The notes below the pieces were generated by a model. That model had not been told where the DNA came from and made no database searches. It saw only the letters and a program-made list of their open reading frames with translations. 64,000 bases of DNA from Gulosibacter molinativorax. GTDB taxonomy: Bacteria; Actinomycetota; Actinomycetes; Actinomycetales; Microbacteriaceae. Within the stretch, counting starts at the first letter, position 1. Each line of letters opens with the position of its first letter. The stretch spans positions 1,488,001 through 1,552,000 of the forward strand of contig NZ_CP028426.1 of NCBI RefSeq assembly GCF_003010915.2, read 5' to 3'. The position numbers were made by a program, and so were the translations under genes. Positions 6,799-52,532 of this stretch are shown here, one piece after another.

Positions 6799-7212
6799 TT
6801 GTCCGATCTTGCAGCGCGTTACGGGACATCCCGGCGCCAGTCCCCCAAACCACCAAGCGCCAAAACCACGAAGTGGGTCTCGATCGGCTTCGTTATCGCA
6901 CTGACACTTGGCACGATTGGGTTCTGGGCACTGACCTTCAACAACGCGGACACCACGATCGAGTCGCAGACCGCACGCTTCTCACCAATATCTGACACCG
7001 AGGCGTCGATCCAGGCGCGAGTCTCGGTGCAGCCAGGCACACCGCTCGCGTGCGCGTTCGAGGCGCAGAATGACATGAAGGCCGTCGTCGGCTACGAGGT
7101 CGTCGAGCTTCCGCCCAGCGCCGAACCCCACCAGGTGGTCAACCTCACGCTTCGCACGACGCAGCGCGCCGACAACGTCAGCGTTCGCGAGTGCTGGATC
7201 CCGGGAGCCTAA
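6799..7212 (+). CDS. DUF4307 domain membrane protein
   Basis: A 137-residue protein starting with TTG at 6799 (MSDLAARYG). One membrane helix spans about 28-48 (VSIGFVIALTLGTIGFWAL); the rest is an outside beta-type domain with two cysteines (LACAFEAQN and VRECWIP). This fits the actinobacterial DUF4307 family, whose function is unknown. It diverges from mca, and greA follows 114 bases downstream, an arrangement seen in many Actinobacteria. Confidence 0.75.
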   Translation: MSDLAARYGTSRRQSPKPPSAKTTKWVSIGFVIALTLGTIGFWALTFNNADTTIESQTARFSPISDTEASIQARVSVQPGTPLACAFEAQNDMKAVVGYEVVELPPSAEPHQVVNLTLRTTQRADNVSVRECWIPGA

Positions 7213-7326: not shown

Positions 7327-7815
7327 ATGACCGCCCAGTCCGACTCAACTTGGCTTACCCAGGAGGCGTACGACCGCCTGAAGGACGAGCACGAGTGGCT
7401 GACGACGACACGGCGTCAGGAGATAACCAAGGAGATTCAGGAAGCCCGCGAGGATGGCGACCTGAAGGAGAACGCAGGTTACCACGCGGCTCGGGAAGAG
7501 CAGGGACGCATCGAAGCTCGGATCACCGAGATCGAGTACACCCTCAAGCACTCCGTGGTCACGGAGGCGCCTGAGGCGGACGGTACGGTCGTGCTCGGCA
7601 CCGTCGTCACCGCCAAGATCGGCCCGCGCGAGCAGAAGTTCCTCTTCGCGAGCACCGAGCTCGAGAGCCAGACCGACCTTCGCGTGTTCTCCCCCGACAG
7701 CCCGCTCGGCCAGGCCATCGACGGCCTCAAGGTCGGCGACAAGGCGTCCTACGAAGCACCGAACGGTTCGAGCATCGAGGTCGAGGTCCAGAACGTCGAG
7801 ACCTTCCGCGGCTAA
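7327..7815 (+). CDS. greA: Transcription elongation factor GreA
   Basis: A 162-residue GreA that rescues backtracked RNA polymerase by stimulating transcript cleavage. The N-terminal coiled coil carries the acidic tip EAREDGDLKENAGYHAA (about 37-53) with the two conserved acidic residues. The C-terminal FKBP-like domain ends VGDKASYEAPNGSSIEVEV. ATG 7327 was chosen because GAGGAG at 7315-7320 is six bases away; the in-frame ATG at 7321 is too close. Followed by a strong bidirectional terminator. Confidence 0.95.
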   Translation: MTAQSDSTWLTQEAYDRLKDEHEWLTTTRRQEITKEIQEAREDGDLKENAGYHAAREEQGRIEARITEIEYTLKHSVVTEAPEADGTVVLGTVVTAKIGPREQKFLFASTELESQTDLRVFSPDSPLGQAIDGLKVGDKASYEAPNGSSIEVEVQNVETFRG

Positions 7816-10375: not shown

Positions 10376-10951
10376 CTAGAACTGAACTCGGGGTGGCTCC
10401 GAGATCGCGGCACGGTCGGCGACCTCAAAGAACTCGCGGTTGTGGAAGCCGAGCGGGCCCGCAACCAAGTTGTTCGGGAACGACTTCACAGATGTGTTGA
10501 GCTGGCGGACGCTGCCGTTGTAATAGCGACGCGAGGCCTGGATCTTGTTCTCGGTCTGGACGAGGTCGCTCTGCAGTTGCGAGAAGTTCGAGGATGCCTG
10601 CAGCTGCGGGTATGCCTCCGCGACCGCGAACAGGCTGCGCAGTGCGCCCTGGACATGGTTCTCGGCTGTGGATGCCTCGGACGGCGACTGTGCGCTCAGC
10701 GTCTCGCTCCGAGCCTGCGTGACGTCATCGAACACTTTCGATTCGTGCTTCGCGTAGGACTTCACTGTCTCGACGATGTTCGGGATGAGGTCGGCCCGGC
10801 GCTTGAGCTGCACCGTAATATCGCTCCACGCCTCGTCAACGCGAACGTTGAACTTCGTGAGTTTGTTATACGTGATCCAAACCCACACCAAAAGCGCAAT
10901 AAGGAGGACGACAACGATTCCTACCGGGATTATCCAACCGAGCTGATCCAT
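10376..10951 (-). CDS. LemA family protein
   Basis: A 191-residue protein with one N-terminal membrane helix (about 4-26, IIPVGIVVVLLIALLVWVWI) followed by the LemA helical domain: YNKLTKFNVRVDEAWSDITVQLKRRADLIPNIVETVKSYA and the conserved end NTSVKSFPNNLVAGPLGF...EFFEV. LemA proteins are membrane-tethered helical bundles of unknown function. ATG 10951 was preferred over the upstream GTG codons. The AI-2E gene follows five bases later on the same strand, so the order lemA-permease-ilvA may be one operon. Confidence 0.88.
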   Translation of the reverse strand: MDQLGWIIPVGIVVVLLIALLVWVWITYNKLTKFNVRVDEAWSDITVQLKRRADLIPNIVETVKSYAKHESKVFDDVTQARSETLSAQSPSEASTAENHVQGALRSLFAVAEAYPQLQASSNFSQLQSDLVQTENKIQASRRYYNGSVRQLNTSVKSFPNNLVAGPLGFHNREFFEVADRAAISEPPRVQF

Positions 10952-39428: not shown

Positions 39429-42104
39429 GTGATCACCGTGACCTCCCCGGTGTCTAGCCCACTGCCCACCTCCGACTCGACGCCCGAACCCCAATGGCAC
39501 GCCCTGACGCCTGCCAAAACCCGCGCCGCGCTCGACGTCACGAAAGACGGGCTCAGCGCCGCCGAGGTGGATGCGCGACTCGAGCGATTTGGCCCGAACG
39601 AACTCGAGGCTACCGAACCGGATTCGTGGATCGTCGTCTTGCTCAGGCAGTTCCGCTCGCCCATGGTGCTGTTCCTCCTCATCGCCGCGGTGATCACCGC
39701 GCTCCAACGCGAGTGGTTCGACACCGCGGTGATCGCACTCACGCTGCTGCTCAATGCCTCGATTGGGTTCTGGCAGGAGCGAAAATCTGATTCGGATGTG
39801 CGCGCCCTCCAACAGCTCACGCTCACCGAGGCGACGGTGGTTCGTGACGGCACGGCCCACCGAATTCCCGCATCCGGGCTCGTCCCCGGCGACACGATTC
39901 GACTCGAGTCGGGTGATCAGGTCCCCGCCGACGCGCGGCTCGACGAGGTCAACGGGCTCCAGATCGACGAATCGATGCTGACGGGCGAGGCGCTGCCCAC
40001 GCTGAAATCCGCCGACCCGCTCGACGAAGCAACCGTGATTGGCGACCGCGAGAATATGGCGTTCTCGGGCACGCTCGTCGTCTCGGGACGCGCGAGCGCG
40101 ATCGTCGTCGACACCGGCACGAACACCGAGATCGGCGAAATCGCCGAATCCGTCCAGGGCGAATCGGGAAAGACCCCGCTGCAGCACCTCACGGATCGGC
40201 TCGAGAAATTCATCGCGGTCGCCGTGGTCGGCATGGCCCTGCTGATCTCAGTCGCCGCGGTGTTCATAGGTGCGCCGCTGTCCGAGGCCTTCCGCACGAT
40301 GGTGGCGCTCATCGTCTCCGCGCTCCCCGAGGCGCTCCCGATCGTGTTGACCGTCGCGCTGGGCGTCGGCGTGTCACGGATGGCGAAGCATCACGCCGTG
40401 GTCCGCCGCCTCCCGAGTGTCGAGACGCTTGGGTCGACCACCGTCATCGGGTCGGACAAGACCGGCACGCTCACGATCAATCGGATGACCGTCGAGCAGC
40501 TTTGGACGCCGGACGGCGAAACCCTCGACGTCCTCGCCGCGGCCGACGACGGCCGGGATCTCGATCGTGGCCAGATCGCGAGCCTTCGCACCGGCTCGCG
40601 CACGAATGAGTCGGTGCACCGCCCGGATCACGAGGTCGAGCTCCTCGGCGACGCGGTCGATGTCGCGATGGCAGCGGCAGCCCTGTCCACCGGCGCAACT
40701 ACGGCGGAGGAGCTCGCCGAACGCCCGGTCGCCGACATGCCGTACGAGCCGGAGCACGCCTACTCGCAGAGCGTCTATCGCGAGGGCAACCGCTACATCC
40801 TGCACGTGAAGGGCGCGCCCGACACGATCCTCCGCTTCTGCCACGACATGGCGGCCGGGAACGAACGCGTGGCGCTCGACCCCAAAAAGGTTCGGGATGC
40901 GAACCTTGCGATGGCCCGCAACGGCCTGCGCGTGATCGCCACGGCCACCGCCGAGGTTCCCGAACCGGCTCAGGATGCGCCGCTCCCCACCCCTCGCGGC
41001 CTCACCTTCACGGGGCTGCAGGGAATGATGGATCCGCCCCGCCCGGGCGTCGCGCAGGCCATCGCCGACTGTAAGAGCGCCGGTATCCACGTGATGATGA
41101 TCACTGGCGATCACCCGGCGACCGCCGAGTCCATTGGCAAACGCCTCGGCCTCGAGGGAGGCGCTCCCCCGCTGACGGGCGCCGAGATGGCCGAGCTCGA
41201 TGATTTCGATCTCATCGACCGCCTCCACGAAACCTCGGTCGCGGCCCGGATGAGTCCCCAGGACAAGCTGCGCATCGTGCGCGTGCTGCAGAGTGACGAC
41301 GAGATCGTCGCCGTAACCGGTGACGGGGTGAACGATGCGCCCGCGCTCAAGGCCGCATCCATCGGCGTCGCGATGGGGGCATCCGGAACCGACGTCGCGC
41401 GTGAGGCCGCCGACGTCGTGCTCACCGACGACAATTTCGTGACGATCGTCGAGGCGGTGAAGCAGGGGCGCGTCACGTTCAGCTCGATCCGCAAGGCCAC
41501 CTATTTCCTCCTCGCGAACGGGCTCGCGGCGCTGCTCGCGGTCGCGGTCAATACCTTCACCGACCTGCCGCTCATCTTCCTGCCCGCCACGCTCATCTTC
41601 ATGAACGTCGTGACGAACGGCGTGCAAGATATCGCGCTCGCGTTCGAGCCTGGCGAGGGCGACGAACTCAAGCAGAAGCCGCGCCCGCAGTCGGAGGGCA
41701 TTCTCGGCACGACGATGTGGCTGCGCACCGTCATCACGGGCATCTGGATGGCCGCGGGCACGCTCGTGGTCTACCACGGTGCCTTCGCGATGAATCTCAG
41801 CGTCGACCACGCGCGCACCCTCGCGCTCATCACGATGGTGATGTTCAACTTCTTCAATGTCTTCAACGCGCGCGCCGAGCGCCGCTCGGTCTTCTCGCTC
41901 AACCCGCTCGGCAATCCGCTGCTGTTCTTTTCGGCGATCGTGGCGCTGCTGCTGCAGTGGGGCGCGACCGTGTGGCCGGTGTCGGCAAACCTCATCGGCC
42001 TCGAGCCGCTCAGCGCCGCCGAGTGGCTCATGTGCACACTCGTCGGTGCGACCGTGATGGTGATCGTCGAGCTCGAGAAGCTCGTGCGCCGGCTGCGCGG
42101 CTAG
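39429..42104 (+). CDS. P2-type cation-transporting P-type ATPase
   Basis: An 891-residue ion pump of the P2A-like group, ten helices. N-terminal LSAAEVDARLERFGPNEL, TGEALPT, the phosphorylation site SDKTGTLTINRM near 345, KGAPDTIL, and the hinge GDGVNDAPALKAA. Helix 4 reads SALPEALPIVL; helix 5-6 reads LANGLAALL and MNVVTNGVQD. Compared with the SERCA Ca2+ sites, the helix-4 Glu and the two Asn/Thr positions remain, but the helix-5 Glu is Ala and the helix-6 Asp is Asn, so Ca2+ specificity is doubtful. GTG 39429 or 39438 is the start. Its stop overlaps the sigma-factor stop by four bases. Confidence 0.85.
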   Translation: MITVTSPVSSPLPTSDSTPEPQWHALTPAKTRAALDVTKDGLSAAEVDARLERFGPNELEATEPDSWIVVLLRQFRSPMVLFLLIAAVITALQREWFDTAVIALTLLLNASIGFWQERKSDSDVRALQQLTLTEATVVRDGTAHRIPASGLVPGDTIRLESGDQVPADARLDEVNGLQIDESMLTGEALPTLKSADPLDEATVIGDRENMAFSGTLVVSGRASAIVVDTGTNTEIGEIAESVQGESGKTPLQHLTDRLEKFIAVAVVGMALLISVAAVFIGAPLSEAFRTMVALIVSALPEALPIVLTVALGVGVSRMAKHHAVVRRLPSVETLGSTTVIGSDKTGTLTINRMTVEQLWTPDGETLDVLAAADDGRDLDRGQIASLRTGSRTNESVHRPDHEVELLGDAVDVAMAAAALSTGATTAEELAERPVADMPYEPEHAYSQSVYREGNRYILHVKGAPDTILRFCHDMAAGNERVALDPKKVRDANLAMARNGLRVIATATAEVPEPAQDAPLPTPRGLTFTGLQGMMDPPRPGVAQAIADCKSAGIHVMMITGDHPATAESIGKRLGLEGGAPPLTGAEMAELDDFDLIDRLHETSVAARMSPQDKLRIVRVLQSDDEIVAVTGDGVNDAPALKAASIGVAMGASGTDVAREAADVVLTDDNFVTIVEAVKQGRVTFSSIRKATYFLLANGLAALLAVAVNTFTDLPLIFLPATLIFMNVVTNGVQDIALAFEPGEGDELKQKPRPQSEGILGTTMWLRTVITGIWMAAGTLVVYHGAFAMNLSVDHARTLALITMVMFNFFNVFNARAERRSVFSLNPLGNPLLFFSAIVALLLQWGATVWPVSANLIGLEPLSAAEWLMCTLVGATVMVIVELEKLVRRLRG

Positions 42105-42706
42105 GCGCCGGCCTGCTGCAGCTCGAGCACGGCCTCTTTGAACTGCTTGCGGGCGCGATTCAGCCGAGAACGCACCGTCTGCACGGGAACCTTTTGATAC
42201 TCCGCAATTTGTTCGTACGTGTAGTCACCGTATTCGCGCAGGACGAGCGCGACGCGGAAGTCCTCACCAAGCTTGGCGAGCGCGAGCTGCACCGTGTCGC
42301 GCATTTCATGGTCGGATGCGAAATCGTTCCCCGGCTCGTCCGGCTCGAACACTGACTGCGACTGCTCGTCGTCGCCAACCGTGATCTCGCGGCGCTTGCG
42401 AATCACCGCGAGCGCCGCGTTCGTCGCAATGCGGAACGCCCACGTGCCGATGGAGGCTTCGCCCCGGAACTTCGGCAGGTTTTGCCAGATCGCAATTAGC
42501 GCGTTCTGGAGCGCATCCTCGGCATCGGCCCGATGCTCGGTCGTGCGCAGACACGTTGCCCAGAGTCGGTCTCGGTAGGGCTGCAACAGCGCATCGAACG
42601 CCCGGCGGTCGCCTGACTTTGCTCTCGCGAGTAGGTCTCGTTCGTCGGCGAATGGTGCCACATCGCCTCCAGGTGGATGCGTGGAAGTCCGGTCATGCGC
42701 GCTCAC
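42101..42706 (-). CDS. ECF-type RNA polymerase sigma factor
   Basis: A 201-residue sigma factor with regions 2 and 4 only. Region 2: FDALLQPYRDRLWATCLRTTEHRADAEDALQNALIAIWQ and FRGEASIGTWAFRIATNAAL (split by the family spacing). Region 4: LREYGDYTYEQIAEYQKVPVQTVRSRLNRARKQ, which reads the -35. No anti-sigma gene is next to it; the neighbour downstream is convergent. The gene diverges from three repeat-protein genes that share an ECF-like promoter, making it the natural candidate regulator. Start GTG 42706. Confidence 0.9.
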   Translation of the reverse strand: MSAHDRTSTHPPGGDVAPFADERDLLARAKSGDRRAFDALLQPYRDRLWATCLRTTEHRADAEDALQNALIAIWQNLPKFRGEASIGTWAFRIATNAALAVIRKRREITVGDDEQSQSVFEPDEPGNDFASDHEMRDTVQLALAKLGEDFRVALVLREYGDYTYEQIAEYQKVPVQTVRSRLNRARKQFKEAVLELQQAGA

Positions 42707-42808
42707 GGCGCGCGTCTTCTGGATGCTATCCCCTGCGCCTTAAAGGGACGGCACTGGGACTGCGGGAATACTGCCAGAGGATGACCCGAAAAAAACTTTT
42801 CTCGGCCC

Positions 42809-42840
42809 GGGAACTTTTCGTAACCCCGACGCATCCAATC
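42809..42840 (+). promoter_or_regulatory. ECF-type promoter of first repeat-protein gene (P1)
   Basis: GGGAACTTT (42809-42817), 13 bases, then GCATCCAATC (42831-42840), 42 bases before the start codon. The same two boxes at the same spacing precede both paralogous genes. A GGAACTT -35 with a TCYAA -10 resembles the sigma-E type consensus. Confidence 0.75.
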
Positions 42841-42881
42841 ATCGACCGCAGGAACGATGCACCGGAAGGAACATTCGAACA

Positions 42882-43784
42882 ATGACTACGAACCAGCCCG
42901 CAACGAACGACGCACCGGCCAACGACGCAAATCAGGGCTACTCGTCGGCGGAGGCATTCGACCTCGACGGTGACGGCCTCATTGACGTTGTCGAGTACGA
43001 CACCGATGGCGACGGCGTCGCCGACGAATTCCACTACGACGCAGACGGTGACGGCCAGATCGACAACGTCTACACCGACCTCGACGGTGACGGATACCTC
43101 GACGCGCGTTTCATCGACACCGACGGCGACGGCGTGCTCGACTACGCCGACGTCGACACGGACGGCGACGGCATCATCGACACCACGATGTACGACACCG
43201 ACGGCGACGGCAAGCTCGACCAGGCCAACATCGACACCGACGGCGACACCTACGCGGACACCTTCTCGAGCGCCGACGGCGACTACTACGCTACGCAGGT
43301 CGATCCTGGCAACGCGATGGATGCACCCGTCGGCGACGCAGGCGACGCCGAAAGCACGGATGTGCCGCACACCGATGACCCCGCTGGTGACGGCCAGCCG
43401 ATCGGTGGCGAAGGCCAGGGCAACAGCGAAAGCATCCCGCCCACCGGCGACAGCTCGACCGGCGACACCGCAACTGACGGCGATGAGATCGACTACAGCG
43501 ACGCGGAGTCCGCGGACTCCTATGTCGAAGGCGAAGCCACGGTGGACAGCGACGGCGACGGCATCAACGACTCCGCCGTGCTCGACCTCGACGGCGACGG
43601 CGTGGACGACGCCCTGCTCACCGACCTCGACGGCGACGGCATTGGCGAATCGCTCTCGGTCGACACCGACGGTGACGGCGTGTACGACGTCTTCGGCACG
43701 GATGCCGATGGCGACGGTGTCATCGAGGACTTCCAGGCCGACACCGACGGTGACGGCATCGGCGACACCGCGATCGACTACTAA
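42882..43784 (+). CDS. Acidic DxDGDGxxD repeat protein, copy 1
   Basis: A 300-residue, extremely acidic protein without signal peptide or membrane helix (MTTNQPATNDAPAND). It consists of two blocks of strict 13-residue repeats, consensus DxDGDGxxDxxxx: eight in residues about 27-130 and six in about 222-300, joined by a Gly/Ser/Asp linker. Acidic residues at positions 1, 3, 5 and 9 fit EF-hand/thrombospondin type 3 Ca2+ loops. Function unknown; buffering or Ca2+-triggered assembly is inference. It is preceded by promoter P1, with AAGGAA upstream of the ATG, and diverges from the sigma gene. Confidence 0.8.
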   Translation: MTTNQPATNDAPANDANQGYSSAEAFDLDGDGLIDVVEYDTDGDGVADEFHYDADGDGQIDNVYTDLDGDGYLDARFIDTDGDGVLDYADVDTDGDGIIDTTMYDTDGDGKLDQANIDTDGDTYADTFSSADGDYYATQVDPGNAMDAPVGDAGDAESTDVPHTDDPAGDGQPIGGEGQGNSESIPPTGDSSTGDTATDGDEIDYSDAESADSYVEGEATVDSDGDGINDSAVLDLDGDGVDDALLTDLDGDGIGESLSVDTDGDGVYDVFGTDADGDGVIEDFQADTDGDGIGDTAIDY

Positions 43785-43804
43785 GGAAATCCGCGAGCCG
43801 GTTC

Positions 43805-43836
43805 GGGAACTTTCTGGCAGGCCGCGGCATCTAATC
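43805..43836 (+). promoter_or_regulatory. ECF-type promoter of second repeat-protein gene (P2)
   Basis: GGGAACTTT (43805-43813), 13 bases, GCATCTAATC (43827-43836); the start codon is 50 bases further on. Identical spacing to P1 and P3, with one base different in the -10 box. Confidence 0.75.
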
Positions 43837-43885
43837 ACTGAACCTCACGAAAACAACCACCACCCACTCCCGAAAGGCCGCAGCC

Positions 43886-44785
43886 ATGAGCACCAACGAC
43901 AGCCCGTTCCAGTTCCAGACCACCGACGGCGTCCCGCAGGAAGAGCTGCAGGACGACACCACGACCCAGGACGACACGACCGAATCGGAAGCGATTCCCG
44001 AGAGCAACGACTCGACCGAGCCAGCCCCCACCGAAACCGAGACCGACACTGAAACCGAGTCGGAGACCGGCACCGGCCAGGCAACCGACTCGACCCAGAG
44101 CGTCGACACGAACGAGTATGGTTCGACCGAAGCCGAGCCGATCTACGCATCCGACACGACCCCGACGAGCTACGACTCCTCGGTCGCCTACGACGTCGAC
44201 GGCGACGGCGTCGCCGAGATCATCGACTACGACACCGACGGCGACGGCTACGTCGACCAGTCGAACGTCGACAACGACGGCGACGGCCTCACCGACCAGG
44301 TCTTCATCGACGTCGACGGCGACGGCTACACCGACATCGTCGCCACCGACACGGACCTCGACGGCGTTATCGACTACATCGAGGCTGACACCGACGGTGA
44401 CGGGTACGTCGACACGACGCTGCGCGACACCGACGGCGACGGTGTGCTCGACACCGCCCTGATTGACACCGACGGTGACGGCGTTGCCGACACCGAGGTT
44501 GACCTCACCGAGGAGCCCACGATCCCAAGCCCGGCCATGGGCAACCAGTTCGACCTCGACGGCGACGGCGTCTACGAATCGAACTACGTCGACCTCGACG
44601 GCGACGGCGTCGTGGATGCGCTCGGAAGCGACTGGGACGGCGATGGTCTCGCCGAAGAGGTCTACCAGGACACCGACGGTGACGGCGTGTACGACACTGT
44701 CTACGTCGACAGCGACGGCGACGGCGAGCTCGACACGGCCTACACCGGGGACGACACCTCCGGCGCTGCCGACGCGGCTCTCTAA
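43886..44785 (+). CDS. Acidic DxDGDGxxD repeat protein, copy 2
   Basis: A 299-residue paralogue of the preceding protein. The first 100 residues are disordered Thr/Glu/Asp (TESEAIPESNDSTEPAPTE), then 13-residue repeats in two blocks, seven at about 104-200 and five at about 217-290 (FDLDGDGVYESNYV style), separated by a TEEPTIPSPAMG hinge. No secretion signal or membrane helix is seen. Own promoter P2 and a GAAAGG site before ATG. It ends against a large hairpin that overlaps the next promoter. Confidence 0.8.
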   Translation: MSTNDSPFQFQTTDGVPQEELQDDTTTQDDTTESEAIPESNDSTEPAPTETETDTETESETGTGQATDSTQSVDTNEYGSTEAEPIYASDTTPTSYDSSVAYDVDGDGVAEIIDYDTDGDGYVDQSNVDNDGDGLTDQVFIDVDGDGYTDIVATDTDLDGVIDYIEADTDGDGYVDTTLRDTDGDGVLDTALIDTDGDGVADTEVDLTEEPTIPSPAMGNQFDLDGDGVYESNYVDLDGDGVVDALGSDWDGDGLAEEVYQDTDGDGVYDTVYVDSDGDGELDTAYTGDDTSGAADAAL

Positions 44786-44797
44786 ATCCGCAAAAAA

Positions 44798-44838
44798 GGA
44801 TGCGCGGGGCGGGAACTTTCTTCCCGCCCCGCGCATCC
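44798..44838. terminator. Perfect 18-bp inverted repeat overlapping promoter P3
   Basis: Arms 44798-44815 and 44821-44838 pair perfectly around a five-base loop, 13 bases after the stop of copy 2. An A run precedes it but no T run follows, so it is an atypical + strand terminator. It contains the -35 box and most of the -10 box of P3. Confidence 0.65.
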
Positions 44839-44842
44839 AATC
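44811..44842 (+). promoter_or_regulatory. ECF-type promoter of third repeat-protein gene (P3)
   Basis: GGGAACTTT (44811-44819), 13 bases, GCATCCAATC (44833-44842), 48 bases before the ATG. Same boxes and spacing as P1 and P2, here embedded in an 18-bp inverted repeat. Confidence 0.7.
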
Positions 44843-44889
44843 TATGAACACACCACGCGGAACATTCCTCCTCAGCAAAGGATTTCGAC

Positions 44890-46197
44890 ATGACCACGAA
44901 CCAGCCCAACGAGTACCTCGACCTGAACAACGACGGCATCTCTGACGCCCAGACCGTTGATGTCGACGGCGACGGCGTCGTCGACGGCATGAAGGTCGAC
45001 CAGGACAGCGACGGAGTGACCGACTACGCCGTCTACGACGCGGACGGTGACGGGTACGCCGAATCCACCATTCTCGACACTGACGGCGACGGCAACCCCG
45101 ACACCCTCCTCGTCGATGAGGACGGCGACGGTTACGCCGACAGCTCCGCGGCGATCAACCCCGATGGCTCGCTCGCCGATGGCGGCAGCGAGGCCGGAGA
45201 CACCGGCACGAACGACGCCACCGAGCCAGTCACGAACACCAACTCAACCACCAACACCACCACCGAGACCGAGGGCGTCACGACCGAAGACCTCGACGGC
45301 GACGGCTACGCCGAGACGGTCTTCATCGACGAGGACGGCGACGGCTACGCCGAGACGATTGCAATCGACTCGAACGCTGACGGCGAGATTGACATGGTCG
45401 ACTACGACTACGACCAGGACGGCACCTCAGACGAGATCTACGTCGACTCGGACTTCGACGGCGACTTCGATACCGTCTACACGGACGCCGACGGCGACGG
45501 TCAGTACGAGGCCTCGACAGACGGCACCACGCCTGACCCGGTCGGCACCCCAGGCGGTGGCACACCACCGGCAGACACCAACTCGCAGCAGGTCGACACC
45601 TCGGGCACCGGCGAGACCGTGAGTGACACCGGCGAATTCACTTACGACTCGGACGGCGACGGGGTGAATGACTCCGGCTACTTCGACATCGACGGCGACG
45701 GCGTGGACGACACGTTCGGCACCGACTCGAACGGTGACGGCTACGTCGACTCGGCGATCATCGATCTCGATGGCGACGGTACCTACGACGTGTACGCCGA
45801 AGACACCGACGGCGACGGCATCCTCGACACCGAGACTGACATGTCCGGCGGCAGCTCTTCCTCGGCAACGCCCGTCAGCGACACCGGCACGTCGACCAGC
45901 GACGGCTCATCCTCGTACAGCGACCTCGGCACCCCCACCGTCGACGTCGACGGGGACGGCGTGATCGAGTCGGTCGAGTTCGACGTCGATGGCAACGGCG
46001 TGACCGACACGCTCGTTTCGGACCTCAACGGCGACGGTGTGGCCGACGCTGTCTTCATGGACACCAACAACGACGGACACTTCGACGTCACGGGTGCCGA
46101 CACCGACGGCGACGGCTACCTCGACTCCTATGACACCGACGGCGACGGCGAGTTCGACACCTTCGACTTCGACGGCGACGGCGTCGCCGACGCCTAG
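44890..46197 (+). CDS. Acidic DxDGDGxxD repeat protein, copy 3
   Basis: The largest paralogue, 435 residues, starting MTTNQPNEYLDLNNDGISD like copy 1. Four blocks of 13-residue acidic repeats are separated by Thr/Ser/Gly-rich linkers (TNTNSTTNTTTETEG, TPGGGTPPADTNSQQ, SGGSSSSATPVSDT). Some repeats vary the loop (DQDSDG, DYDQDG, DTNNDG), still keeping the acid pattern. It has no signal peptide. Promoter P3 and AAAGGA seven bases before ATG. A terminator hairpin follows. Confidence 0.8.
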   Translation: MTTNQPNEYLDLNNDGISDAQTVDVDGDGVVDGMKVDQDSDGVTDYAVYDADGDGYAESTILDTDGDGNPDTLLVDEDGDGYADSSAAINPDGSLADGGSEAGDTGTNDATEPVTNTNSTTNTTTETEGVTTEDLDGDGYAETVFIDEDGDGYAETIAIDSNADGEIDMVDYDYDQDGTSDEIYVDSDFDGDFDTVYTDADGDGQYEASTDGTTPDPVGTPGGGTPPADTNSQQVDTSGTGETVSDTGEFTYDSDGDGVNDSGYFDIDGDGVDDTFGTDSNGDGYVDSAIIDLDGDGTYDVYAEDTDGDGILDTETDMSGGSSSSATPVSDTGTSTSDGSSSYSDLGTPTVDVDGDGVIESVEFDVDGNGVTDTLVSDLNGDGVADAVFMDTNNDGHFDVTGADTDGDGYLDSYDTDGDGEFDTFDFDGDGVADA

Positions 46198-46224
46198 ACC
46201 GGCCAAACCCAACTCCTCCCCACG

Positions 46225-46265
46225 GTGTGCTGTCGGGTGACCACGACATTCACCCGACAGCACAC
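46225..46265 (+). terminator. Terminator after third repeat-protein gene
   Basis: A perfect 15-bp stem (46225-46239 with 46251-46265), followed about ten bases later by a T run. It lies between copy 3 and the next gene and could also act as an attenuator for that gene. Confidence 0.85.
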
Positions 46266-46300
46266 ACCCCCACTCTTTTTACTCACAAGGAGCCTCGAAC

Positions 46301-46870
46301 ATGGTTAGCGAAAACAGCAGCCCTAGTGCCTCGGAAGAGCCGCTGCTCGGCGCCGCCCCCACACTTCCCGATGAGCAGTGGGGCCAGCTGCTTGACTCGG
46401 TATTCGAGGCACCTCCCGGCTACGCCGACGACATCGTGGATGCGTTCAATGCACCAGAGAGCGCGGACGAAACCGTCGACACGGATGACCACACGATCGA
46501 CTTTGACGCCGTCGCCGGTGGCGCTGGGGAAACCGGAAGTGCAGGCGCAACCGGCGGCGCGAGCGACGCTACTTCCGTCGACGACGACTCCCTCATCGAC
46601 GTGGACGCGGCCGAGGAAGACAGCAATGCGGCCGCTGGTACGCAAACCGCAACAGCGAACGGTTTTGCCGCCGAGGCCGAATCCGGATTTTCGGTCGACA
46701 CTGCGTTTACGGTCGACACTGCGGCCGCCACCGAGGACGACCTCGGCTTCGAAGACACGGGCGCCGATGCGGACTCGGAGTTCTCGATCGACACGGCCGA
46801 TCTCGATGCCGAGGACCTCGGCGACGGGCTCGATGGCGACACCTTCGACACGGGCGAATACTTCGTGTAG
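46301..46870 (+). CDS. Acidic disordered protein
   Basis: A 189-residue acidic protein. The first 50 residues could fold (LPDEQWGQLLDSVFEAPPGYADDIVDAF); the rest is disordered Asp/Glu/Ala/Thr with repeated FSVDTA/FTVDTA/FSIDTA segments and an aromatic end, EYFV. It lacks the DGDGD loops of its neighbours but shares their charge. No signal peptide. AAGGAG precedes ATG. It faces the dynamin-like operon; a role with it is inference. I do not recognise the family. Confidence 0.6.
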   Translation: MVSENSSPSASEEPLLGAAPTLPDEQWGQLLDSVFEAPPGYADDIVDAFNAPESADETVDTDDHTIDFDAVAGGAGETGSAGATGGASDATSVDDDSLIDVDAAEEDSNAAAGTQTATANGFAAEAESGFSVDTAFTVDTAAATEDDLGFEDTGADADSEFSIDTADLDAEDLGDGLDGDTFDTGEYFV

Positions 46871-46916
46871 GCCGGTGGAGTTGAGGCCGGTTGCGCCGAG
46901 GCAGGAAGGGTCGGAC

Positions 46917-48377
46917 CTAGCGTCCGGCCCTTCCGAGTTTCATCGCCAACAGCGTGAACGAACGGTCGAGCACGTTGTACGCGTTCTGCCGCTCGGGGTA
47001 CGGCTCGACGACTGAGGCGCGCCGTGCCTCCATACTCCACGTGAGGGCCTGCTGTCGCAGCTGATCGGGCGTGCTTGCCGGCGAGAGCGCGAGCCGCTCG
47101 GCATCGTTTCGACCCGACAGCTGGCGGTCCAGCATCCCGACGAGCGGGTGGTTGGGCTCGATCGCAGCCAGCCGCTCAAGCGCATCCAGCTCTTGCAGCG
47201 GATGCAACTCCGGCTTGAGCTTCGCCTCGGCCACGAACCCGCGCAGCGGCGGTGGCGCGCCGTTGGCCCACGCAAGGCGCTGCAGCCGCTCCATCGCGCG
47301 GCGCGTCTTGACGTGCACGTAGCGGCCCACGTAGCGCACCGCCAGTGCGCGGCGCAGCTCGTCGATGCCGGAAGATTTCTCGAGCCAGTGGCTCAGTGCC
47401 CGCGCGCCGTTTCGCGCCGGCTCGCGACCGAAGCGGATGCCGTACTCGCCGATGAGCTCGGCAAGCCGCGACACCTCGAGGTTCAGGATGCCGGGGGCGA
47501 GTTCGCCGAGATAGTTGGGGTCACGCAGCTCCAGGTCGAGCTCGTCGACGCCGCCGAGCTGACCGAGCATCGCCGCGTCATGCTCGCGCACGAGACCCGC
47601 TCGCGCGGCCTGCGCCATGTTACCGGCGACCGCGACGACATTGCCGAGGAGCGCACCGTGCTGCTGGGCAAACTTCGCGGCGCCCTGCCGGGCCATTTCG
47701 ATCGGGTCGTCCCCGCCCCACGGCGAGCCGCCGAACGTGTCGGCGTGCGTAAGCACACCGATCGCGTGCGAGGCCGCCTCGGCTGGCGTATTCGTCACCG
47801 ACGCCCACTCGCGCAGGAAATCGACATCATCCCGCATTGGCATGTCGTGGAACACCACGAGCAGCGCATCCGCCGCCCGAACGCCCTCGTGGCCGAGCAC
47901 GGTGCGCCGGGTCGCGTCCTCGTTCGAGGTCGTGGTGGTCGCGAGGCCCGGGGTATCGATAAGCGTCATGTCGCGCAACACCTCGGACTGCAGGTACACC
48001 ACCGCGTGCTGCACGTGCTCGGGTGGGACGGGCAGCCGCTCGGGCAGGCAGCCGTTGTACAGGTCGAACGGGATGCGCCGACCGTCGCGCGTGAAGACCT
48101 CGCCACGCTCTGGGCCGCCGAACGTGTAATGCGTCGTGACCTTCGTGCACTCGACCGCTGCGGTCGGCGCGACGACGCGGCCGACGAGGGCGTTTACGAG
48201 CGTGGACTTACCTGCCTTCACGCGCCCCACCACCGCGAGCCGGATCGTCTCGTCAAGCGAGCGCCGCACCATGTCGGTGACGCGGCCCGTGCCGGGGCGA
48301 TCGACGCGGTCAAAGGCATCGCAGAGCTCGAAAATGGCCCTGCGCATCCCCTGACTAGTTTCGATCGACCCGCTCAT
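46917..48377 (-). CDS. Dynamin-like GTPase, second copy
   Basis: A 486-residue large GTPase. G1: VVGRVKAGKSTLVNALVG near 50-67; G2-type threonine in ECTKVTTHYTFG; G3: LIDTPGLATTT; G4: LTHADT in place of NKxD. A helical region follows to the C-terminus without an obvious membrane helix. It is the last gene of the operon and overlaps the Hsp70-like gene by four bases. Pairs of dynamin-like GTPases act together in other Actinobacteria (IniA/IniC, DynA/DynB), so it may hetero-assemble with the protein at 50673-52532. Confidence 0.85.
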   Translation of the reverse strand: MSGSIETSQGMRRAIFELCDAFDRVDRPGTGRVTDMVRRSLDETIRLAVVGRVKAGKSTLVNALVGRVVAPTAAVECTKVTTHYTFGGPERGEVFTRDGRRIPFDLYNGCLPERLPVPPEHVQHAVVYLQSEVLRDMTLIDTPGLATTTTSNEDATRRTVLGHEGVRAADALLVVFHDMPMRDDVDFLREWASVTNTPAEAASHAIGVLTHADTFGGSPWGGDDPIEMARQGAAKFAQQHGALLGNVVAVAGNMAQAARAGLVREHDAAMLGQLGGVDELDLELRDPNYLGELAPGILNLEVSRLAELIGEYGIRFGREPARNGARALSHWLEKSSGIDELRRALAVRYVGRYVHVKTRRAMERLQRLAWANGAPPPLRGFVAEAKLKPELHPLQELDALERLAAIEPNHPLVGMLDRQLSGRNDAERLALSPASTPDQLRQQALTWSMEARRASVVEPYPERQNAYNVLDRSFTLLAMKLGRAGR

Positions 48378-50608
48378 ACGCGCTCGGTGGTGGCCACTGC
48401 GTAGGCGACCTCGCTGAGCGGGCGCATGGTGAATCGATTGCTGAAGTCGTTGAGGTTGTCGTGGTTGCCGTGCGACGGGTCATTGTCGAGCCGCACGAAC
48501 AGCCCGAAGGGCTGGCCCTCATACAGATAGACGTGCGAGTAGCCGCCGCTGCCGTCGGTGAATTCGCCTTCCCAATGCGGGCCGGCAGGCTCGCCGTTTA
48601 CCTCCCACGTGCCGGGATCCTCGTTGTAGAGGCTCTCGGCGTAACCGACCGCATCGTCATAGGAGTTGAACTCCATGACGTAGACGAAGCTGTTCGGGCG
48701 GTCGTACCAGGAGCACTCCTTCTGCATCGAGTCGCCCGCAACCTCCTGGCAGGAGGCGCCGTCAAAGGACACGAGCCAGTCGAGCGCTGCCTGACCGGTC
48801 AACCGGTTGCAGTTCTCCTTCGCACCGGCGGATGCCCCATCCCAGCACTCGATCTCGCCTTCGGCCACCACGATCTCTTCGACCGTCGGGGTGTCGGTGG
48901 GGTCGCCCGTCGCGATCGAGGAGCCACCGCCACCGAAGATCGAGGTTGCGCCCCAAATGACGCCGACGACGACTACGATCGCCGCGAGGATGCCGAGGAC
49001 GAGCTTGAGCGGGCTCTTCTTCTTGCCGCCCAGCGCTCCGGCCGACTGACTGACGGCCTGCCCGCCCGCCGGGCCCTTACCGTAGCTGCCGCCCCCGGCC
49101 TGGGTGGCAGGGCGCGCCGCGCCCATGATGCCAAACGGCTGCGTTTGCGCGGGCGATTGATTCGGTGCCGGGCGCTGCCCCGGTGCTACTGGTCGGGACT
49201 GCGCGGGTGGTCGAGACTGCCCGGGCGACTGTGCCGGCGGTCGTGCGGGCCCCTGCCCCTGAGGCGGGCGCTGCACCTGGCTCGGCGAACCGGTCGCGGA
49301 TGCACTCCCCTGCGCGCCCTGGAAAAGGCCCGGCTGCGCGACCGCGGGGCGCTGCTGGCCGGGATGCGCGGGCTGGCCCGGTCGGGTCATCCCGGCTACC
49401 GGCCCAGTCGCGCCCGCAGGCGGCGAGAACGGAGCGCTCGCCGGCGGATTCTGCGAGGGCTGCGCGGACACTGGCGCCTGCGTCGGCGCCGGCGTGGAAG
49501 GCTTGAGTGGCTGGGCGGCGCGGACGGCACCGAGCGGCGCGACGTGCAGCGCGCCCTCCGCGACGACCAGCTTCGGGTCGTCGAGGGTCGCAATGCGGAT
49601 GCCGGTTCGCTCCCGAATCATGTGACTGATCGCCGGTGTCCGCGAGGAACCACCGGTCAGGTACAGCACCTCGGGTGGCGGGCCGCTGACCTGGGCGAAG
49701 ACGTCGGTGAGGAGCTTGCCCGCGCGATCGAGGTCATCCGCGATGAGCTTCTCGTATTCCTTGCGGGTGATGGTGACCACGGCATCCTCTTCGCCGAGAC
49801 TCACTGCGATATCGGCGTCGGGACGGGTAGAAAGCTCGATCTTGGCAGAGGTCACGGCGCGGCTCAACGTGGTCTGCGCGCGCAGCTCAGACATCGTCTT
49901 GGGGCGGTGGAGGCGGTCGGCGAGCTCCGAGTGGCCGCGGCGCGCGAGCGTCTCGAGGGCCCAGTCGAGCAGGCGAGCATCAAACGTGCGACCGCCGAGC
50001 ACGGGGTCGCCGCCGTAGGCGAGGACGCGATAGCCCTCGGGCAGCTGGGGCGCGCGCTCGAGGACCGCGAGGTCGAGAGTGCCGCCACCAAAGTCGAACA
50101 CCGCAACGCGCGAGCCGGGGGCTGCGCGGTGGTTTCGGGCGTAGTGCGCCGCCGCCGCGATCGGCTCGTTCACGGTCCGGATGGTCTCGGCGGCGAATCC
50201 CGCCGCAACGGCGCCCTCGCGGAGCGCCTCGATCTGCGACGGTGCCCAAGCGACCGGGTGCGTCAGCCAGACCTCGGCCGGGGATGAACCGTCCTGGCGG
50301 CGCAGCGCCGCTGCTCGCACGTACGAATAAATCTCCCGCACGATGTCATTCGGGCTGACGATCTCGCCGGCAAGCACGACCTCGCCGCGGCCGACGAGCA
50401 TCTTCGGCGAGCGTTCGAAGCCGTCGGGGTGACGCAGCTGGGCGTTGACGGCCTCCTCGCCGACGCGGAATCCGCTGGGAGTCAGCACGATCGCGGAGGG
50501 CATTGAGGTGCCGCTCTCGCTGAGCGAAATGGGTCGGACGGCTCCCTGCGCATCGATGGCAGCGGCGGTATTCGACGTGCCGAAGTCGATTGAGAGGCGC
50601 CAGGCCAT
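48374..50608 (-). CDS. Membrane-anchored Hsp70-like ATPase
   Basis: A 744-residue protein. The N-terminal 370 residues are an actin/Hsp70 ATPase domain: LSIDFGTSNTAAAID, FDFGGGTLDLAVLE and LTGGSSRTPAI. No substrate-binding domain follows; instead there is a Pro/Gln/Ala-rich linker of about 160 residues, one membrane helix (about 528-550, LKLVLGILAAIVVVVGVIWG) and an outside domain of about 170 residues with four cysteines (ECWDG, ENCNR, ASCQE, KECSW). ATG 50608 follows AGGAA by eight bases. It lies between two dynamin-like GTPase genes. Inference: an ATP-driven membrane adaptor or sensor for the GTPases. Confidence 0.85.
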   Translation of the reverse strand: MAWRLSIDFGTSNTAAAIDAQGAVRPISLSESGTSMPSAIVLTPSGFRVGEEAVNAQLRHPDGFERSPKMLVGRGEVVLAGEIVSPNDIVREIYSYVRAAALRRQDGSSPAEVWLTHPVAWAPSQIEALREGAVAAGFAAETIRTVNEPIAAAAHYARNHRAAPGSRVAVFDFGGGTLDLAVLERAPQLPEGYRVLAYGGDPVLGGRTFDARLLDWALETLARRGHSELADRLHRPKTMSELRAQTTLSRAVTSAKIELSTRPDADIAVSLGEEDAVVTITRKEYEKLIADDLDRAGKLLTDVFAQVSGPPPEVLYLTGGSSRTPAISHMIRERTGIRIATLDDPKLVVAEGALHVAPLGAVRAAQPLKPSTPAPTQAPVSAQPSQNPPASAPFSPPAGATGPVAGMTRPGQPAHPGQQRPAVAQPGLFQGAQGSASATGSPSQVQRPPQGQGPARPPAQSPGQSRPPAQSRPVAPGQRPAPNQSPAQTQPFGIMGAARPATQAGGGSYGKGPAGGQAVSQSAGALGGKKKSPLKLVLGILAAIVVVVGVIWGATSIFGGGGSSIATGDPTDTPTVEEIVVAEGEIECWDGASAGAKENCNRLTGQAALDWLVSFDGASCQEVAGDSMQKECSWYDRPNSFVYVMEFNSYDDAVGYAESLYNEDPGTWEVNGEPAGPHWEGEFTDGSGGYSHVYLYEGQPFGLFVRLDNDPSHGNHDNLNDFSNRFTMRPLSEVAYAVATTERV

Positions 50609-50672
50609 ATGAAGCATTCCTATCTTGCGGGTTCAGAATCTCGAGACTGCAAACTGATACGAGGATACGTGG

Positions 50673-52532
50673 TTAGGGACCTGGTGCCGAAGCGCGGTCC
50701 GTAAGTCGCAAGATTTCGTCGTGCGCGGCCGCCATGGCGGATTCGATTTGCTCTATCTTCGGGTCGATTTGCGCGAGCCGACGCTCCCGCTCCGACTCGC
50801 TCGCGCGCTTGGCCGATTCGAGCCGCGCAAGCTCCGTTTTCGCATCCGTCACCGACTGCCGCAGGTCGCGGTCGAATACCTTGCGCGCATCCGTCGAGAC
50901 GACGCCGAGGACGCCCCGCACCGCGCGATCGAGGGTCTCGCGCAGCTCGATCGTGGCGTCATTCGCCGTCTGCATCACCGACTGCCGCTTCGCCTGCCGC
51001 CGCGCCAGGATGATGCTGAAACTGCCCATCACCGCAACGCCGATCACCGGCATGAACACGACCGAGGTGATCGCGGTGAGCATGCCGCCGATACCCGAGC
51101 CCATCAGCACGCCCGAGACCATCATGCGCGGATCGATCGAGGCCGTGCCACGATCGAGCCCACCGCGAGGCCCCGCATCCGCCTCGAGCGCCCGCCGCTC
51201 GACCTCCTGCAGGAGCCCCTGCTGGGGATCCATGCCCGCCGCGGCATACAGCTCGGAGAGCAGGCTCGTGCCGCGCTGCACGATCCCTCGCAGCGCGCGG
51301 CCGACCTGCACCTCAATATCAGCCGCCATCTCGTTCATGAGCGCGACGCTCTGCTTCTCGCTAATGCCCGCGCCGTATTTTTGCAGCCGGTCCTTCCAGT
51401 GCGCCCCGAATTCGCGGGACAGCCGGGCATTGGCGGCCGTGAGCTCGACTCGCACGCGGTCGACCTGCGCGTTCCAGTCGTACTTCGAATCCTCGAAGGT
51501 GCGCAGCAGCTTTTCGCGGTGATCGCGCACGGCAAGCAGATTGTCGTGCTTCTCGACGATCCCGCCCAGCGCCTCGCGCTCGGTCTCCAGCTGGATGAGC
51601 GGCTTCTCGAGCATCGCGATCCCCTGCCGGAGCGCGTTGAGCGTCGGCAGCTTCGAGCCGCGCTCGAGCGGGGCCCGCAGTGCGCGAATCAGCTCGTGGA
51701 CATTGCTCGACCCGTAGAGCTTGCGGCGTCGCGCCTCGTCGGGCTCGGCGGCCGCGCGCTCGCCCCAGGCGCCCGAAACAGGGATGATCGGGATGTTCGC
51801 GAGCCGCGGGTCGCGCGCCGCGAGAACCTGCCGATTCTCTTCCAGCACGGCCTGCCAGTGCCCGCGATAGAGGTCGATCTTCGTGACGGCGAGGACGACT
51901 GACTCGACCATCGTGCTGCAGTGCACGAGAAACTCGAGCGCGGGCTTCGTGATCCGGCCGGCGGCGTCGGTGACCATGAGCAGCACCGATGCATCCTGCG
52001 CGCGGGCGATCGCGCGCATCACATACGCCTCGCTGAGCCCGCCCGAGCCGGGCGTATCGACGATCGTGACGCGACCTAGCGGTGACTTCTTCACGGCGCG
52101 GGATGCCTGCAGGGGCGGCTCCTCCGCATCCAGCAGGGTCGGCGAGTCGATCCGCACCCACTGCGGCAGCTCCTCGGCGGGGATGCGGCGCAGCCGCGGC
52201 TCGGATGCGTACTCCAGCTCCGCCTGCCCGAACGGGAAGTTCTCGCTCTCGGGCACGTAGCTCACCGAAAGCCCCGTGGTCTCCGTCGGCCCGACCGGCG
52301 AGGTTCCGGGGGCGCCGAGGATCGCGTTGATGAGCGTGGACTTGCCGCGATTCATCTCACCGACCACGACCACGCTCGGCTGTCGGCCCTGCGAATCCTT
52401 GATCATCCGAGCGATCGCCGCGAATTGCTCGCTGCGATCATTGGCCTTCGCCGCGGCGCCGAGTTGCCGGAACGCAAGCGTCGCCGAGTTCGGCTTTGGC
52501 TTGGTCTCGGTTTTCGGGGCCTCTGACGTCAT
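50673..52532 (-). CDS. Dynamin-like GTPase with membrane segment, first copy
   Basis: A 619-residue dynamin-family GTPase. G1: VVVVGEMNRGKSTLINAIL near 54-72; a G2-type TGLSVSY; G3: IVDTPGSGGLSEAY; G4: VTKIDLYRG. A helical stalk follows (about 290-470), then a hydrophobic hairpin (about 480-530, MVSGVLMGSGIGGMLTAITS and VFMPVIGVAVMGSFSII) for membrane contact, and a final coiled coil. ATG 52532 (MTSEAPKTE) was chosen over the longer frame. First gene of a three-gene operon with the Hsp70-like gene and the second GTPase. Confidence 0.87.
   Translation of the reverse strand: MTSEAPKTETKPKPNSATLAFRQLGAAAKANDRSEQFAAIARMIKDSQGRQPSVVVVGEMNRGKSTLINAILGAPGTSPVGPTETTGLSVSYVPESENFPFGQAELEYASEPRLRRIPAEELPQWVRIDSPTLLDAEEPPLQASRAVKKSPLGRVTIVDTPGSGGLSEAYVMRAIARAQDASVLLMVTDAAGRITKPALEFLVHCSTMVESVVLAVTKIDLYRGHWQAVLEENRQVLAARDPRLANIPIIPVSGAWGERAAAEPDEARRRKLYGSSNVHELIRALRAPLERGSKLPTLNALRQGIAMLEKPLIQLETEREALGGIVEKHDNLLAVRDHREKLLRTFEDSKYDWNAQVDRVRVELTAANARLSREFGAHWKDRLQKYGAGISEKQSVALMNEMAADIEVQVGRALRGIVQRGTSLLSELYAAAGMDPQQGLLQEVERRALEADAGPRGGLDRGTASIDPRMMVSGVLMGSGIGGMLTAITSVVFMPVIGVAVMGSFSIILARRQAKRQSVMQTANDATIELRETLDRAVRGVLGVVSTDARKVFDRDLRQSVTDAKTELARLESAKRASESERERRLAQIDPKIEQIESAMAAAHDEILRLTDRASAPGP

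Follow-up and report, generated by a model that had tools for sequence, protein, structure and literature searches.

An ECF sigma factor, acidic repeat proteins and an IniA/IniC-Hsp70 operon in Gulosibacter molinativorax as a probable iniBAC-type membrane-maintenance module

Within a window of 64,000 nt from the genome of Gulosibacter molinativorax (Microbacteriaceae; NZ_CP028426.1, positions 1488001-1552000; the genome comprises 3.50 Mb in two contigs) lies a block of genes that is probably a conserved actinobacterial membrane-maintenance module of the iniBAC type, placed beside, and at least for some of its genes under, a dedicated extracytoplasmic function (ECF) sigma factor. The sigma gene on the minus strand is followed on the plus strand by three genes encoding repeat proteins (rep1, rep2 and rep3), which are the genes likely to be under its control, and by a gene for a small acidic protein. 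Facing these is a three-gene operon on the minus strand that, read from right to left, encodes an IniA-like GTPase, an Hsp70-type ATPase and an IniC-like GTPase. A P-type ATPase gene flanks the block on one side, and a glutathione S-transferase (GST)/ispE cluster on the other. All the parts listed in an earlier note on this DNA (the sigma, three repeat paralogs, the acidic protein and the facing dynamin-Hsp70-dynamin operon) were confirmed at their positions (Table 1), and a gene caller based on the GC content of third codon positions chose identical frames for the block genes. At the level of sequence, comparison between genomes shows that the repeat proteins and the sigma clade form one evolutionary unit with the IniA/IniC-type pair and the Hsp70-type ATPase, and that the repeat genes are one promoter-defined unit.

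Sigma and repeat genes go together throughout Gulosibacter. There is a sigma ortholog in 11/11 genomes of the genus, with 69-86% identity to that of the window in the ten congeners (E = 1.7e-76 or better), compared with a best match by E-value of 40% (E = 9e-25) in 49 other relatives. Repeat proteins were found at E = 1e-10 in all 11 genus genomes and in none of the 49 others, and in every genus genome the sigma gene has a repeat gene as its divergent neighbor. The facing operon lies directly after the sigma-repeat part in eight of the 11, and is mostly located beside ispE. Its placement is compatible with this arrangement in two more; in one of these the block would span both ends of one 2.0-Mb contig, and in the other repeat genes are cut off at the ends of both contigs.

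Beyond the genus, an alignment of 31 IniC-like proteins was used to collect the best 80 IniC-like loci, which are the nearest rather than all such loci, each of up to 21 kb and some cut by contig ends. The first 28 (L088-L115), together with L183 and the window, make up 30 system loci, and the next 52 are taken as control loci. Of the top 28, 26 contain a sigma ortholog (44-75%), the misses being Gulosibacter sp. 10 and a contig end, while a sigma of at least 40% is present in none of the next 52 (one reaches 33% and one 25%). Repeat proteins with E below 1e-9 occur in 20/28 top loci against 0/52, with weaker matches in L099 and L105; in L108 and L110 the DxDG repeats are carried by a C39-type protein. 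Hsp70 is found in 23/28 top and 37/52 next loci, and an IniA-like protein in 26/28 and 49/52. From these counts it follows that the dynamin pair and Hsp70 are general, and that the sigma and repeats mark one branch. In a quick IniC tree the proteins of all 30 system loci fall on one side of a branch with a Shimodaira-Hasegawa-like approximate likelihood ratio (SH-aLRT) support of 99.7. Loci with the sigma ortholog include those of Pseudoclavibacter, Herbiconiux, Leifsonia, Leucobacter, Nakamurella, Jidongwangia, Spirilliplanes, Actinoplanes, Nocardioides, Aeromicrobium, Pseudonocardia and Williamsia, and gene order is changed in those of other genera. The earlier note had held that the five gene types belong together, and named as a check whether the repeat genes and the GTPase operon are separate in the majority of related genomes. 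Linkage holds for most of the genus and for loci of many other actinobacterial genera, with a promoter nearly confined to the block, which bears out the association.

Further proteins recur in the system loci outside Gulosibacter. C39-peptidase-like proteins are encoded in 11 of them and in two control loci, and GrpE-like proteins in eight, with weak matches in four control loci; Pfam models identified Peptidase_C39_2 in 4/4 and GrpE in 2/2 proteins tested. C39-peptidase-like proteins with one to five DxDG repeats, often with a W-x-LLPV-like C-terminal end, occur in several genera (L098:6079-7440, L099:13810-15036, L102:5920-6843, L105:326-1495 and L108:8154-9473), and had no match in the Gulosibacter stretches examined. 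In the Leifsonia locus L098, a lipoprotein-like zinc metallopeptidase (PF04228; 12317-13030) adjoins a repeat gene; 24 bp upstream lies a sigma-type site.

The sigma factor itself matched models of regions 2 and 4, and no region 3 model. ECF sigma genes usually, though not universally, have a cognate anti-sigma gene adjacent. Here the neighbors are rep1 and the P-type ATPase gene, and no anti-sigma gene is directly adjacent. The transmembrane (TM) Hsp70-type ATPase is a candidate for holding the sigma back. Searches with sigma alone, in which up to eight candidates per genome were scored so that misses are possible, reached E = 1e-30 in 2/396 genomes of the order (its own and G321, at 45%) and in 15/396 of the phylum, its own included. 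In G321 the 20 kb around the sigma gene hold repeat, IniA-like, IniC-like and Hsp70 genes. Around the 14 phylum matches neither repeats nor dynamins were found within the 15-20 kb examined, and in the sigma tree 13 of these 14, together with L039, fall outside the sigma clade. That clade (support 99/95) takes in every one of the 28 system sigmas entered, along with a single outsider, L184.

Each repeat gene in the window is preceded by GGAACTTT-N13-GCATCYAATC (short form GGAAC-N18-ATCYAAT), which we take to be an ECF-type -35/-10 pair, ending 41, 49 and 47 bases from the ATG of rep1, rep2 and rep3, respectively. When no more than one mismatch was allowed, the 3.5-Mb genome yielded these three sites alone. 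With up to three mismatches there are four matches, comprising the same three (0, 1 and 0 mismatches) and one with three mismatches inside a coding frame. As there are three good sites genome-wide and all are at repeat genes, the regulon here is, by the motif criterion, the three repeat genes. Among 60 relatives the exact pattern was found in 9/11 genus genomes (its own included) and 0/49 others, with no control match throughout, and the two genus genomes that lack it have one- or two-base variants before their repeat genes. There are 24 exact sites in the genus. Twenty are within the sigma-repeat block, and four precede an open frame of 36-38 codons in four congeners, adjoining a gene presumably encoding phosphoenolpyruvate carboxykinase. 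These frames share an AL-x-WY motif (L083 near 6737 and L085 near 7064 on the plus strand; L084 with its site at 7077 and L086 with its site at 7350 on the minus strand), and judged from sequence might encode a small-protein member of the regulon, as is possible in those four congeners.

Similar sites occur in other genera. By eye, GGAAC-N18(19)-[AC]TCNNA was seen before 17 of 20 repeat genes, the other three being second genes of tandem pairs. We counted sites within 150 bp of start codons in the 30 system loci, using motifs built from these loci. They precede 33/44 repeat open reading frames (in 22 loci), 11/20 acidic and 5/11 C39-type genes, as well as 6/28 IniA-like, 3/24 Hsp70 and 1/8 GrpE genes, with a spacer of 18 in 55 of the 60 sites. 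The control loci had 20 sites in 888 kb (dynA 4/47, Hsp70 1/39, dynC 1/52). When GCATC was required, 22 sites remained in 449 kb of non-Gulosibacter system loci compared with two in the 888 kb of control. The pattern GGGAACAT-N16-MTCNNA gave 16 matches in eight genomes of other genera (~50 Mb), of which 13 lie inside the system locus (~0.34% of the sequence), and the control none; a ninth genome, G321, had no match.

A number of observations weigh against a single module governed by one sigma factor. The motif scan revealed no sigma-type site before the GTPase operon in this genome, nor upstream of the fourth acidic gene in the window. Only the repeat genes have a sigma-type promoter, and it is therefore unlikely here that this sigma transcribes the entire island together, as had been envisaged. 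In the system loci sites precede 1/30 IniC-like and 0/28 sigma genes, so that there is no sign of autoregulation by the sigma, and the loose count for IniA-like (dynA) genes is not far above that of the control. The stricter GCATC motif was chosen after the sites had been seen, and a reversed control pattern matched once in this genome with up to three mismatches. In Gulosibacter sp. 10 the sigma and repeats are on a different contig from the operon, which lies at 79.7-81.2 kb of a 119-kb contig. A strong repeat match is absent from 8/28 top loci, and Hsp70 is not within reach in five. Lastly, the sigma-clade gene of L184 (genome G710) has an in-frame stop, in a genome lacking an IniC-like match at E = 1e-10; this gene is possibly the relic of a lost module.

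Some of these points would be expected if the block were two mere neighbors, a sigma-repeat regulon next to a separately regulated, general actinobacterial IniA/IniC-Hsp70 operon. The absence of a site before the operon and the unlinked parts in Gulosibacter sp. 10 are consistent with this, as is the occurrence of IniA/IniC-like pairs with a nearby Hsp70 in the absence of sigma and repeats, in the control loci. But linkage is kept across genera despite rearrangement of the genes, and the IniC-like proteins of sigma-bearing loci lie on one side of a branch. Moreover, five strict sites lie ahead of an IniA-like gene or of an acidic gene paired with one; the loci concerned are from Leucobacter (one), Micromonosporaceae (two) and Nocardioides (two). 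We therefore regard simple adjacency as unlikely.

The two GTPases account for two of the three Dynamin_N matches in the genome, the third being partial and elsewhere. The best solved relative of the IniA-like protein is IniA (6j72; E = 3.4e-18, residues 27-589). GTPase motifs are present in this IniA-like protein, and near residues 475-493 it has a hydrophobic segment, at a place where bacterial dynamins insert into the membrane. The nearest named relative of the IniC-like protein outside Gulosibacter is IniC (57%), and two relatives (P0132 and P0168) carry the name IniC at source.

The protein encoded between them has the actin-like ATPase domain of Hsp70/DnaK chaperones, with the phosphate motifs common to both and an adenosine motif. 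Its match to PF00012 (4e-30) is limited to profile positions 103-368 of 599, and since it stops there no substrate-binding domain was recognized. In place of that domain are a proline-rich linker, a TM-like segment (residues 539-557) and an outer domain of 157 residues with four conserved cysteines. The outer domain is modeled as a confident fold (predicted local distance difference test score (pLDDT) 86.6, predicted template modeling score (pTM) 0.82), for which no clear structural relative was found. Among the best 27 relatives of the protein, the four that are named are all from Gulosibacter, the best being that of G. chungangensis (77%). The GrpE-like genes in eight system loci of other genera are a further likeness to Hsp70/DnaK. 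An Hsp70-type domain is fused to a dynamin domain in three database proteins (P0040, P0048 and P0050), and these fusions argue for direct cooperation of ATPase and GTPase. The earlier suggestion was that an ATPase sensor works with the GTPases, and it is the working together that the fusions support. A 1509-aa frame at L100:6851-11377 brings together an Hsp70-type N-terminus, a part that looks out of frame, a further ATPase-like stretch that is degenerate, and an IniC-like GTPase; it may combine a frame error with a true ATPase-GTPase fusion.

The repeat proteins are built from a 13-residue unit, D-x-D-G-D-G-x-x-D-xxxx, with 13, 13 and 24 motifs in rep1, rep2 and rep3. The exact 13-residue spacing is kept in 11/12, 11/12 and 18/23 intervals, respectively. 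All are extremely acidic, with ratios of acidic to basic residues of 89:2, 89:1 and 122:1, and the small acidic protein, which has relatives in system loci of other genera, contains 50 Asp or Glu and no Lys or Arg. A hydropathy scan revealed neither signal peptide nor TM segment in the repeat and acidic proteins, and for this reason we take them to be cytosolic. In a model of rep1 made with a 14-row alignment there is one β strand per 13 residues with DxDGDG at the turns; pLDDT lies for the most part at 82-91 across the repeats, and most of residues 134-211 fall below 50. Its structural matches are modest, single-layer sheets.

The DxDxDGxxD pattern is the loop chemistry of thrombospondin type 3 (TSP3), EF-hand and dockerin-type DxDGDG repeats. 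The rep proteins resemble these in their loops, but differ in their long runs of 13-residue period, and the three window proteins gave no match to EF-hand, TSP3 or dockerin family models at E = 0.01. Where EF-hands have helices, the rep1 model has β strands. Sub-cut-off matches to EF-hand_5 and TSP_3 were obtained for a Nocardioides repeat relative. Searching the sequences of solved structures with rep1 (E up to 1) returned only lanmodulin (E = 3.2e-4) and another EF-hand protein (E = 4.5e-4), matches that are weak and composition-prone. Against Pfam and NCBIfam at E = 0.01 the four acidic proteins gave only a sub-cut-off match to DUF6802 (rep3); IniB was not compared directly, and the presence of an IniB model in these libraries was unchecked.

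Paired dynamins are known in bacteria, such as DynA/DynB and the Campylobacter pair. Two dynamin-family genes per operon are described as usual in bacteria (PMC6104087). The window has the same arrangement, but with a membrane Hsp70-type ATPase between the two and a linked sigma-repeat unit. The closest likeness is to mycobacterial iniBAC, where IniA-type and IniC-type GTPases are also side by side, and where IniB is a size-variable protein of the same unit to which the repeat proteins may be likened. RNA-seq suggests that IniB is made in bulk (PMC5760070). The same source places a dnaK-like gene directly downstream of iniR in M. smegmatis, a species that lacks iniB, and this gene may be likened to the Hsp70-type ATPase of the window (PMC5760070). 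The two systems differ in that the neighboring regulator is an ECF sigma in the window and the ATPase IniR in iniBAC, in that acidic DxDGDG proteins take the place of IniB, which has Gly-rich repeats besides a conserved N-terminus, and in the TM Hsp70-type ATPase between the GTPase genes. No IniR-like protein was found among the block proteins, to which the search was confined. Because IniR is not found as the neighboring regulator we do not class the block as a member of iniBAC, which is a partial precedent already described. According to the earlier note no described system is known to have this set, and this holds for searches of open-access publications; no description of it as a system was found there, most subscription journals lying outside the search.

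If the block is an iniBAC-type maintenance module, it might function as follows. Envelope stress would activate the neighboring sigma, which would read the repeat-gene promoter and lead to bulk synthesis of cytosolic, polyanionic repeat protein in the position of IniB. The GTPase pair would remodel or reseal the plasma membrane, keeping it whole; IniA carries out membrane fission in vitro, and has been proposed to act likewise in cells (PMC6715688). The membrane-spanning ATPase, with its Cys-bearing outer domain, could couple the state outside to the GTPases. Least securely, and with a Ca2+ trigger that is speculative, the repeats might bind Ca2+ at a leak and stiffen into an extended single-layer β sheet. 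A stronger version would be Ca2+-triggered membrane repair, in which repeats that are for the most part unfolded at resting Ca2+ would fold into stiff β sheets where the ion enters at a lesion, and would gather the dynamin pair there to reseal or pinch off the damaged membrane, with the TM actin-like ATPase tuning the process and the sigma restocking the repeats. We find this doubtful, to about the same degree as simple adjacency.

The same components might instead form an anti-phage defence island, in which patchily distributed dynamin-like GTPases seal or abort and the sigma raises their dose. The IniA-like protein matches the PADLOC LeoA and LeoBC models with 65 and 36 bits, and the IniC-like protein with 33 and 19 bits, in a library without a curated cut-off; the rarity of the sigma ortholog in the order and the C39-type domain of 11 system loci would also be in keeping with defence. 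Yet similarity to LeoA may be common to dynamins in general, the C39-type domain is found in control loci too, and no other defence model was matched among seven block proteins. In addition, the presence of sigma and repeats in every genome of the genus, with the operon mostly beside ispE, marks the block as core rather than mobile in Gulosibacter, and we consider a defence role quite improbable. Least probable of all is a storage role, in which the repeat proteins would act as metal or polyanion stores (for Ca2+ or another ion), the sigma would respond to metal or osmotic conditions, and the GTPases would be secondary. The acidity of the repeat proteins, their EF-hand-like loops and the weak lanmodulin and EF-hand matches might suggest it, but their genes remain linked to the dynamin operon in genus after genus, and the P-type ATPase next to the block is not conserved with it, no search having been made for other transporters.

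The block provides a non-mycobacterial setting in which to study the partners and the triggers of IniA/IniC-type dynamins. Its candidate dedicated sigma, its sharp promoter, for which the genome has three good sites, and its unusual partner proteins make regulon, signal and partner open to direct tests. Should the repeats respond to Ca2+, they would offer a bacterial counterpart of calcium-triggered membrane repair.

Table 1. Positions of the block features within the window.
Feature	Position	Strand	Remarks
P-type ATPase	39429..42104	+	tail to tail with the sigma gene; 4-base overlap of sigma 3' end
ECF sigma factor, lone	42101..42706	-	Pfam Sigma70_r2 3e-14, r4_2 6e-13; divergent from rep1
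rep1 promoter, ECF-type, GGAACTTT-N13-GCATCCAATC	42810..42840	+	0 mismatches
rep1, 300-aa DxDGDGxxD 13-residue repeat protein	42882..43784	+	
rep2 promoter, ECF-type	43806..43836	+	1 mismatch
rep2, 299-aa repeat protein	43886..44785	+	
rep3 promoter, ECF-type	44812..44842	+	0 mismatches
rep3, 435-aa repeat protein, 24 motifs	44890..46197	+	
Terminator-like hairpin, then T-run, between rep3 and acidic gene	46225..46280	+	by eye
Small acidic protein, N-terminal stretch conserved	46301..46870	+	
IniC-like dynamin-family GTPase, last gene of operon	46917..48377	-	Dynamin_N 4e-13; G1/G3 motifs
Hsp70-type actin-like ATPase, one TM-like segment	48374..50617	-	PF00012 4e-30
IniA-like dynamin-family GTPase, first gene of operon	50673..52532	-	frame open to 52595

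The P-type ATPase gene does abut the sigma gene, as had been noted, but is not a conserved neighbor. A tblastn search found no match to it in the sigma-block stretches from ten congeners, the flanks of which differ in length, and by this comparison of sequences it is not part of the block. At the position of the hairpin between rep3 and the acidic gene, a long hairpin with changed letters is present in a congener (L073, near 10412-10530 on the minus strand).

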